Program-made: the position numbers and the translations under genes
Notes under the pieces: model-generated
Told to the model about the DNA's origin: nothing
Databases searched by the model: none
What the model saw: only the letters and a program-made list of their open reading frames with translations
Shown: positions 54,671 to 57,757 of the stretch, one piece after another
Layout: each line of letters starts with the position of its first letter
How positions within the stretch are numbered: the first letter of the stretch is position 1
Assembly: GCF_030819175.1 (NCBI RefSeq)
Contig: NZ_JAUTBJ010000002.1
Location: forward strand, 1,684,001-1,748,000
From: Sphingomonas sp. SORGH_AS_0879
GTDB taxonomy: Bacteria; Pseudomonadota; Alphaproteobacteria; Sphingomonadales; Sphingomonadaceae
Direction: 5' to 3'
DNA: 64,000 nucleotides

Positions 54671-55503
54671 GGGCGCCCGCTCCCCGCTTCGCCTCGAACG
54701 ACGGCGTGATCGATGCGGCGCGCGCCGCGCTCGGCCCCTGGCTGGTCGATGCGCGCGAGCATGTGGGTGAGGTCGCGCTGATCGTCGATCGTGCGAACCT
54801 CGTGCCCGCCATGATCGCGCTGCGCGACACCAAGGGGCTGGAATATCAGCAGCTCATGGAGATCGCCGGCGTCGACTATCCCGAGCGCGACGAGCGTTTC
54901 GAGGTGGTCTATTGCCTGCTCTCGCTGACCCGCAACCATCGCCTGCATGTCCATGTCTGCGCCGACGAGGACAAGCCTGTGCCGTCGGTGACGGGCCTGT
55001 GGCCGGTCGCGGGCTGGCTGGAGCGTGAGGTCTATGACCTGTACGGCGTGCTGTTCTCGGGCAATAGCGATCTGCGTCGCATCCTGACGGACTATGGCTT
55101 CCGTGGCCATCCGCTCCGCAAAGACTTCCCGCTGACCGGCTATACCGAGTTGCGTTACTCGGAAGAGGAAAAGCGCGTCGTCTATGAGCCGGTGAAGCTG
55201 GCGCAGGACTTCCGCAATTTCGACTTCCAGAGCCCGTGGGAAGGGGCGGAATACGTCCTTCCCGGCGACGAAAAGGGCTCGCAGCCGGAAGGCAAGGGCG
55301 CGCAGACCCCGGCCAGTGCCGATGCGGTGAAGAAGGCCGATGCCGCGCCGGACAAGACCGCGCCGTCGCAGACCGCCGAGACGAAGACCACCGAAAGCCC
55401 CAAGCAGACGGGCGCGGGCGAACCGCATCCGGGCAACAAGGCCGAAGGTAAGCCCCAGAACCCGGACGTCGTGCCGGGCAAGGGTGGAGGACAGAATCAG
55501 TGA
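54667..55503 (+). CDS. nuoC: NADH-quinone oxidoreductase subunit C with a long polar tail
   Basis: The product is 278 residues from GTG 54667 (GTGA junction). The first ~190 residues are the normal NuoC core, including [20 protein letters not shown] and [17 protein letters not shown]. After residue about 197 comes an 80-residue tail of Lys, Pro, Ala, Thr, Gly and Gln ([20 protein letters not shown]). Such a tail is absent from many NuoC proteins, is probably disordered, and is read in frame without a stop. Confidence 0.95.
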
Positions 55504-56735
55504 GCGACTATGTCGACGAACTGCTCCACAAGACCGACGCCGTCGACCCGACCACGGGCGACGTGTCGATCCAGAACTATACGATCAACTTCGGCCCGCA
55601 GCATCCGGCGGCGCACGGCGTGCTTCGCCTCGTCATGGAGTTGGACGGCGAGATCGTGGAGCGTATCGATCCGCATGTCGGCCTGCTGCATCGCGGCACC
55701 GAAAAGCTGATCGAACACAAGACCTATTCGCAGGCGCTGCCCTATTTCGATCGCCTCGATTACTGCTCGCCGATGTGCATGGAGCACAGCTATGTGCTGG
55801 CGGTCGAGAAGCTGCTCGATCTGGAAGTGCCGCTGCGTGCGCAATATCTCCGGACGTTCTTTGCGGAACTGACCCGCATTTCGAACCACATGCTCAATCT
55901 GGGCAGCCATGTGATGGACGTCGGCGCGATGACGCCGAACCTGTGGATGTTCGAAATCCGCGAAGACTGCATGAACTTCTATGAGCGTGCTTCGGGCGCG
56001 CGCATGCACGCGAATTATTTCCGTGTCGGCGGCGTCCATCAGGACGTGCCGCTCAAGCTGCTGACCGATATCGCCGACTGGCTCGACACCCGTCTGCCGC
56101 AGCTTTTCGAGGATGCGATCGGGCTGGTTTCGAACAACCGTATCTTCAAGCAGCGCAACGTCGACATTGCGGTGGTCAACCGCGAGGATGCGATCAAATG
56201 GGGCTTCTCCGGTCCGATGATCCGCGGCTCGGGCATTCCGTGGGACCTGCGCAAGTCGCAGCCCTATGACGCCTATGACAAGGTGGACTTCGACGTGCCG
56301 GTGGGCACCAGCGGCGATTGCTATGACCGGTTCATGGTGCGCGTCGAGGAAGTGCGCCAGTCGGCCCGGATCATGAAGCAGTGCCTGGCGCAGATGCCCG
56401 AGGGGCCGGTGCTCAGCCCAGACCGCAAGGTCACGCCGCCCAAGCGCGGTGAGATGAAGCGCTCGATGGAAGCGCTGATCCACCACTTCAAGCTTTATAC
56501 CGAAGGCTATCACGTCCCCGCCGGCGAGGTATATGTCGCGACCGAAAGCCCGAAGGGCGAATTCGGCGTTTATCTCGTCTCCGACGGATCGAACAAGCCC
56601 TATCGGTGCAAGATCCGCCCGACCGCGTTCAGCCACCTCCAGGCCATGGAATTCATGTCCAAGGGGCATATGCTGGCCGACACGACCGCGATCCTGGGCG
56701 CGATGGATATCGTGTTCGGGGAGTGCGATCGTTGA
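55500..56735 (+). CDS. nuoD: NADH-quinone oxidoreductase subunit D
   Basis: The product is 411 residues from GTG 55500. The family motifs [31 protein letters not shown] (here [11 protein letters not shown]) and [11 protein letters not shown] line the quinone cavity. The end SFLHLQAMEF-like stretch ([17 protein letters not shown]) and [12 protein letters not shown] are typical. It overlaps nuoC and the next gene by four bases each. Confidence 0.97.
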
Positions 56736-57083
56736 GCGCGATCGATTCTCCTGCGCGCATCGCGATCGCACGCCAGATGGTCGCGCATTACAATGCGCAG
56801 GACGCCGACGCTTATGTCGCGCTGATGACCGAGGATGCTTGCGAAGCGGGTTATCGCGGGGCCGTGCTGCGCGAGGGACGCGAAGGCGTGCGTTCGGGGC
56901 TGAAGGCGATGTTTGCCCAGTTCCCGCGGAACCGCGCCGAAATCGTCGCCGAACAGGCGTTCGGCGAAACCGTGCTGCTGCATGAAAAGGTCGAACGTGC
57001 GCCGGGTGGCCGAGGCGTTCGAGGTCATGTCCATCTATTCCTTCGAGAACGACAAGGTGTCGCGCGTGGAGTTCATTCGCTAA
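56732..57083 (+). pseudogene. NTF2/SnoaL-like gene inside nuo, apparently frameshifted
   Basis: A small gene starts at TTG 56732 within the nuoD stop (TTGA). Residues such as ARQMVAHYNAQDADAYVALM and VLLHEKVERAPGG match the alpha+beta barrel of SnoaL/NTF2-like proteins. After that, an extra C near 57010-57011 (GGCC) breaks the frame. Removing one C gives EAFEVMSIYSFENDKVSRVE (with the natural end before it) and a stop at 57081-57083, in a TAATG junction with nuoE. As read, the frame instead runs through into nuoE. This may be a real mutation or a sequencing error. Confidence 0.75.
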
Positions 57084-57757
57084 TGGCCGACGCAGCCATC
57101 ATTCCCGACGAGGCAGAAGTCCGCGCCCGCTGGGGCAATTTCGCCTGGACGGACGAGAACCAGAAGAAGGCGAACGAGATTCTCGCGCGCTATCCCAAGG
57201 GTCGCGAACAATCCTGCTCGATCCCGTTCCTCGACCTGGCCCAGCGCCAGGTCGGTGCCGAGACGCAGACGCAAGGCTGGTTGCCCGTGCCGGTGATCGA
57301 GTTCGTGGCGCGCCAACTGGGTGTCGCGTATATGCGCATCTATGAGGTCGCGACCTTCTATACGATGTTCAACCTGGCGCCCGTGGGCCGCTATCATGTG
57401 CAGGTGTGCGGCACGACGCCGTGCATGTTGCGCGGGTCGGACGACGTGCTGGCGGCGTGCAAGAACAAGGGGCTGATCAAGGGCAAGACCACGCCCGACG
57501 GCCTGTTCACGCTGACCGAGGTCGAGTGCATGGGCAATTGCGCATCGGCCCCGATGGTCCAGATCAACGACGACAATTACGAGGATCTGGATTACGACCG
57601 CACGGTCACCATCCTGGAAGCGCTGGCCAAGGGCGAAAGCCCCAAGACCGGCACGCAGGAGCCGGGTCGCCACACGGTCGAGCCGCTGGGCGGTCCGACC
57701 ACGCTGACCGCCATGGTCGGCGATAATCACGACTATCGCGGGGAGTGGGGCGCATAA
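57083..57757 (+). CDS. nuoE: NADH-quinone oxidoreductase subunit E
   Basis: The product is 224 residues from ATG 57083. The 2Fe-2S ligands are C109 and C114 in [10 protein letters not shown], and C149 and C153 in [11 protein letters not shown] polar tail of about 40 residues follows ([19 protein letters not shown]). The longer upstream frame joined to it is an artefact of the frameshift in the preceding gene. The stop overlaps nuoF (TAATG). Confidence 0.95.

Follow-up and report, generated by a model that had tools for sequence, protein, structure and literature searches.

In the window, which is the whole 64,000-nucleotide stretch of DNA that was analyzed, the small gene between nuoD and nuoE is in all likelihood a genuine complex I-linked member of a SnoaL/NTF2-like family. 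It is very probably unbroken in the organism, and the extra base that splits it in the assembly most likely stems from consensus building or polishing carried out in windows. The frameshift itself is very probably an assembly error. The small gene is a real, uncharacterized gene of the complex I operon and was unbroken in every examined relative that has it. With this reading, a key respiratory operon no longer contains a spurious pseudogene or fusion protein.

Organization of the nuoD-nuoE Region

The relevant features of the window were as follows:

55500..56735, + strand: nuoD (complex I 49-kDa subunit; Pfam Complex1_49kDa, 401.8 bits), upstream of the small gene
56732..57083, + strand: SnoaL/NTF2-like gene, homologue of 3FF2 (Saro_2299), identified by its SnoaL_2 match and the family alignment A1; in two parts in two frames as assembled
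56732..56735, + strand: TTGA start/stop overlap of nuoD and the small gene, seen in the window sequence and in relatives
57008..57011, + strand: GGCC with one base more than the reference genomes G052 and G150 (genome position approximately 1741010-1741012), in the period-500 phase
57012..57083, + strand: small-gene C-terminal tail, read in the other frame up to its TAA, identified from the sequence and a separate profile match
57081..57085, + strand: TAATG stop/start overlap of the small gene and nuoE, seen in the window sequence and in named loci
57083..57757, + strand: nuoE (complex I 24-kDa subunit, 2Fe-2S; Pfam 2Fe-2S_thioredx, 176.1 bits), downstream of the small gene

The stop codon of nuoD (TGA, ending at 56735) overlaps the TTG start of the small gene at 56732, which in several relatives is replaced by GTG at the same place. 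From 56732, the SnoaL-like frame is open through nuoE to 57757, and the whole ORF that contains the broken small gene covers 56606-57757 (383 aa in the ORF list). The C-terminal tail typical of the family (...VAEAFEVMSIYSFENDKVSRVEFIR) is found in another frame, and its stop codon (TAA, 57081-57083) overlaps the nuoE ATG at 57083. In a family-profile search, this tail appeared as a separate match to profile positions 88-112 (genome positions 1741006-1741080). The small-gene frame runs open into nuoE because the GGCC at 57008-57011 contains a base that relatives lack. These observations bear out an earlier note on this DNA, which had proposed a SnoaL/NTF2-like frame between the two complex I genes with a TTGA overlap (borne out by the window sequence and by Pfam SnoaL_2), its continuation into nuoE as written, a proper tail end with a TAATG overlap in the other frame, and an extra C at 57010-57011; relative to G052, one more base was indeed present within that CC.

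Family membership was evaluated with an alignment of 15 relatives (A1) and with an alignment to which distant members were added (A2). Scores against SnoaL_2 (PF12680) were 48 bits for the broken frame and 54.5 bits for an intact orthologue (L002), both above the Pfam gathering cut-off of 27. The closest solved structure was the crystal structure PDB 3FF2, which A1 matched with an E-value of 7.4e-44 over positions 5-112 of 112. A structural model of L002 (pLDDT 92.6) adopted the NTF2-type alpha+beta fold, with a TM score of 0.88 to 3FF2. Residues kept in 14 of 14 rows of A2 include the motif YN-x2-D-x-D, located where the first helix ends, along with E85, R89, R111, and F114. In the protein database, 1487 clusters matched the orthologue at an E-value of 1e-10; among the matches listed, the named clusters were annotated as ‘nuclear transport factor 2 family protein’, ‘SnoaL-like’, or hypothetical. 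Two more specific assignments were rejected: ketosteroid isomerase-related protein (TIGR02096), with 12.9-14.8 bits versus an NCBIfam cut-off of 97.1, and the SgcJ/EcaC family (TIGR02246), with 28.5-29.4 bits for three proteins versus a cut-off of 33.95.

The Reading Frame in Relatives

In 15 relatives from the genus, the same gene occurred in one frame, with an identity over the matched part of 69-93% in 14 of them and of 56% in one; the small-gene frame is therefore more than a chance reading frame. A search of 201 Sphingomonas genomes with the family alignment (E 1e-3) yielded 57 matches, the window's genome counted. In 56 of these, the match reached the last profile position in one frame and without a stop, and the window's genome gave two separate matches, to profile positions 3-89 and to 88-112. 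The frame was likewise unbroken in all 80 named loci investigated (the best 80 of 155 confirmed), a set that shares some genomes with the 56 genus genomes. In the same 80 loci (best 80 of 155), nuoE was always found downstream within 1 kb, nuoD was in view upstream in 79, and a 1-base TRATG overlap with nuoE was present in 62. The position of the gene was confirmed for 48 of the 56 genus genomes with a full match, either by both nuoD and nuoE (the 30 loci L102-L131, G189, and G043) or by nuoE coordinates alone (16 genomes); the position check left out eight genomes (G105, G114, G121, G127, G158, G178, G214, and G225). An alignment of orthologues, suggested in the earlier note as a check, thus gave a uniform answer, with the other genus genomes (56/56) and the best 80 of 155 named loci (80/80) reading through unbroken. 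Because all these other matches were unbroken, the break is known from the window's assembly alone.

The open frame had also led to the suggestion of a programmed translational shift, which would yield two products, a short protein of NTF2-like type and an extended one in which it is fused to NuoE. The assembled small-gene frame is indeed open into nuoE, but the two-frame arrangement was found in 0 of the 56 other genus genomes and 0 of the 80 named loci (best 80 of 155), all of which had the gene in a single frame. As the two-frame state was not kept in orthologues, classification as a programmed frameshift gene was rejected. A natural NTF2-NuoE fusion was rejected as well: when residues 1-96 of the open frame were used as a query, fusion-like database proteins amounted to two single-member matches among 53 candidates, both visibly frame-garbled. 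A programmed shift with a fused product is therefore considered extremely improbable.

Another explanation, rated as improbable, is that the extra base is real and reflects a recent frameshift in the strain, in which case the gene would be decaying and NuoE would be translated either within a fusion or separately from its own start. With a GGAG upstream of its ATG in the window sequence, nuoE could still start alone, and loss of the small gene is evidently tolerated since many relatives do without it. No frameshifted remnant of the small gene was found among the 56 genus matches or the 80 named loci (best 80 of 155), which argues against this explanation, and the recent decay that the earlier note had considered gained no positive support.

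Distribution of the Family and Variability of the nuoD-nuoE Slot

At an E-value of 1e-10, family matches were obtained in 24 of 196 genomes of the order and in 5 of 289 genomes of the class, and a search with A2 at an E-value of 1e-6 gave matches in 24 of 385 genomes of the class, the window's genome being counted in each case. Three of the matches in the order were weak (E approximately 1e-11), and the one of these whose locus was inspected (L017 in G098) had neither nuoD nor nuoE alongside. The window gene lies between nuoD and nuoE, as in many Sphingomonadales, and in the class searches this slot also held the gene in G241, G242, G522, G620, and G481. For the four of these that the class search at 1e-10 had yielded, E-values with A1, which contains none of them, were 3.9e-43, 2.5e-26, 2.9e-26, and 9.8e-19. 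G522 and G620 (from one family) and G481 (from another) are Alphaproteobacteria from outside the order, in which the gene in the slot showed 38-40% identity. The 18 weaker class matches obtained with A2 (E 1e-6) had no nuoD or nuoE alongside.

Within the genus, 144 of the 201 Sphingomonas genomes had no family match; 6 of the 201 also lacked a match to nuoE. Among the 29 nearest relatives as judged by NuoE, six had the gene, 14 had nuoD joined to nuoE by a TRATG overlap, and nine had another small ORF or other DNA at this place. In five relatives without the gene, whose NuoE was 97-98% identical, nuoD joined nuoE directly. The frequent absence of the gene favors tolerance of a real, recent frameshift, but the clean slot in 14 of the 29 nearest relatives speaks against the decay that such a frameshift would entail. 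Absence from many relatives, together with presence in other orders, indicates that the gene is an old occupant of the slot that either was often lost or was exchanged along with flanking nuo DNA.

The slot was variable across loci L022-L101 and L231-L259, where 30 of 48 segments of at least 90 nt were each filled to more than 70% by a single ORF. Many slot ORFs start 4 nt inside the stop of the preceding gene and, when next to nuoE, end 8 nt inside nuoE. The 36 slot ORFs fell into 28 clusters, of which 23 were singletons and the largest, with four members, had a coiled-coil-like look; several slot ORFs had one hydrophobic stretch. In L090, nuoD is separated from the SnoaL gene by a segment of 567 nt, which is filled by a 188-aa ORF that, by impression from its sequence, has a signal-peptide-like start and an NTF2-like look. 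A record titled Arthrobacter sp. TPD3018 (L029, QDFQ01000005.1) showed a Sphingomonas-type nuoD-SnoaL-nuoE arrangement and is probably mislabelled. Genome G060 gave two nuoE matches (L005 on contig C3, and one on contig C1); the one next to the SnoaL gene lies on a contig of 33 kb and aligned in two pieces, so that this contig may stem from contamination or represent a second, damaged copy.

Phase of Insertions in the Assembly

In total, 858 kb of the window's chromosome were compared with 400 kb of the near relative G052 (350 kb aligned, 87% identity). A coding test was run on ORFs, whole in G052, that third-position substitutions had singled out (251 genes, 305 kb); events within 45 nt of gene ends were left out. 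The resulting 31 frame-breaking clusters consisted of 16 single insertions of +1 or +2, 8 multi-event clusters, one +4 insertion, and 6 single deletions; phase figures are based on the 16 single insertions, with the multi-event clusters and the +4 insertion set aside. Twelve of the 16, including that in the small gene, were located 10-16 bases past a multiple of 500, a phase shared by none of the 6 deletions. When periods from 300 to 2000 were scanned, 12 insertions fell in one 8-base phase at period 500, versus maxima of 4-6 for 60 random sets. Apart from the one in the small gene, the insertions in this 10-16 phase, 11 in number and 1-2 bases long, break the frames of 10 further conserved ORFs at approximately 1.63-1.96 Mb.

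Gaps of 1-2 nt, coding or not, were also tested; alignments had to span 500 nt or more, and each flank had to be identical at 8 or more of its 10 bases. Versus G052, phase 5-20 contained 13 of 87 insertions and 2 of 76 deletions. With G150 as the second reference (382 kb aligned), the insertions in this phase numbered 15 of 98 (p 6e-7) and the deletions 1 of 96. Among events common to both references, 9 of 24 insertions, including that at 1741011, and 0 of 16 deletions were in phase. A coding test versus G150 (1.62-2.14 Mb) was restricted to single events, with none within 90 nt of gene ends, so that the small gene itself was excluded; phase 10-19 was found for 7 of 11 single insertions and for none of the 4 deletions.

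Attention was drawn to the period by these data, and the stretches on which it was then tested overlap with them. In 140 kb of out-of-sample alignment with G150 (from 1.35-1.62 Mb), phase 5-20 contained 2 of 41 insertions (p 0.38) and 4 of 35 deletions (p 0.02), so that no enrichment of insertions was seen there, a result that favors a real base. After coding filtering of the same stretch, 2 of 3 single frame-breaking insertions were in phase and its one deletion was not; errors may be sparser in this part of the chromosome. The number of frame breaks by itself did not set the window's genome apart, with 31 clusters in 251 G052 genes versus 30 in 258 genes in the reverse direction, and neither did 1-nt gaps regardless of phase, of which 230 were longer in the window's genome versus 222 in G052. 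The effect is visible in phase only and not in raw gap counts. A Rayleigh scan of the 24 insertions common to both references did not place period 500 among its top six.

Error positions were thus locked to assembly coordinates around the window (12 of 16 at period 500, with agreement from the second reference), and one further stretch was flat when all gaps were considered. As to the cause of this phase, we infer that a consensus or polishing step working in 500-base windows would most naturally have added the extra base; the default window of Racon is 500 bases. The period-500 phase of 12 of the 16 single frame-breaking insertions strongly supports the suggestion in the earlier note that the base is a sequencing error. 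It weighs against a real frameshift, as the base shares its phase with 11 other frame-breaking insertions. The position modulo 500 provides a simple test for an error class that breaks other genes of the window's genome, and gene calls from this genome need care. The break itself merits no further interest, and the interest of the family is modest.

Possible Role of the Small Gene

The TTGA and TAATG overlaps suggest that ribosomes would pass from nuoD via the small gene to nuoE, and such coupling would give matched amounts of its product near nascent NuoD and NuoE. Judging from the 3FF2 homologue and the model, this product would be a small soluble NTF2-fold protein. The favored and simplest, though tentative, interpretation, held at somewhat less than even confidence, is that it has no catalytic activity and serves the peripheral arm of complex I, in its NuoD/NuoE part, as an accessory or assembly factor. 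This interpretation is based on position, on the overlaps, and on printed co-regulation of a Caulobacter crescentus gene, CC_1951. Because many relatives do without it, the small gene is not strictly needed for complex I in general, and its clean absence from close relatives, as read from their sequences, argues against a strictly required factor. A published function of the family, and an interaction or phenotype of the small gene, were not found in the searches of open-licence literature.

A Caulobacter study (PMC3751524) lists CC_1951 (CCNA_02028) as an ‘NTF2 enzyme family protein’, with fold changes of -2.11 and -2.23, and the neighboring nuoD (CC_1952) with -2.18 and -2.23; CC_1951 fell with nuoD in iron limitation and in a fur mutant, and the nuo operon was given as CC1956 to CC1950. 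Like the window gene, CC_1951 adjoins nuoD in the nuo operon, a match made by position and name only; from gene order, CC_1950 would be nuoE. In another study (PMC13001252), the CC_1950-CC_1956 operon is described as essential, with transposons at a density of one per 1,250 bp, a figure that applies to the operon as a whole. Saro_2299 is recorded in PMC3608174 as a protein detected intact in a fraction enriched for periplasm; its Met had been removed and, as the table row is read, it has no signal peptide.

An equally tentative rival to this functional interpretation is that the protein is a small-molecule enzyme or binding protein with no tie to complex I, riding in a well-expressed operon. 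The SnoaL_2 fold, the frequent absence of the gene, and the occupation of the nuoD-nuoE slot by unrelated small ORFs are all consistent with such a passenger. Against it, close homologues were found in the slot wherever position was checked, also in other orders, and CC_1951 follows nuo regulation in PMC3751524, although any operon passenger would do so. A broader and more speculative proposal, for which confidence is low, is that alphaproteobacterial complex I has an unrecognized, lineage-variable, small soluble NTF2-fold partner, which has a slot of its own in the operon and is synthesized in coordination with NuoD and NuoE. Where relatives lack this partner, the slot would be empty or would code for different small proteins, likewise coupled and of coiled-coil or single-TM type, whose role may be similar.

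Comparison With Characterized and Structurally Solved Proteins

Ketosteroid isomerase (1OGZ, 3UNL, and others) has the same fold as the L002 model (TM approximately 0.8), but the identity is approximately 20%. Of its catalytic residues Tyr14, Asp38, and Asp99, the first two align to Leu and Gly, and the alignment ends before Asp99. Since the Tyr14 and Asp38 positions are occupied by Leu and Gly, ketosteroid isomerase chemistry is unlikely, which also counts against the passenger interpretation. Agrobacterium Atu0742 (2K54) was the second-best match by structure as well as by sequence, with 23% identity.

The title of the 3FF2 entry names saro_2299 of Novosphingobium aromaticivorans, an ‘uncharacterized cystatin fold protein from NTF2 superfamily’. 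Saro_2299 resembles L002, with 55% identity in the fold match, and shares the C-terminal RVEFIR with the window family, from which it differs by a 6-residue insertion before the last strands. A similar insertion was found in G241, whose gene sits between nuoD and nuoE. The uncharacterized structure 3FF2 is now tied to a family in the complex I operon, and its function is directly testable.
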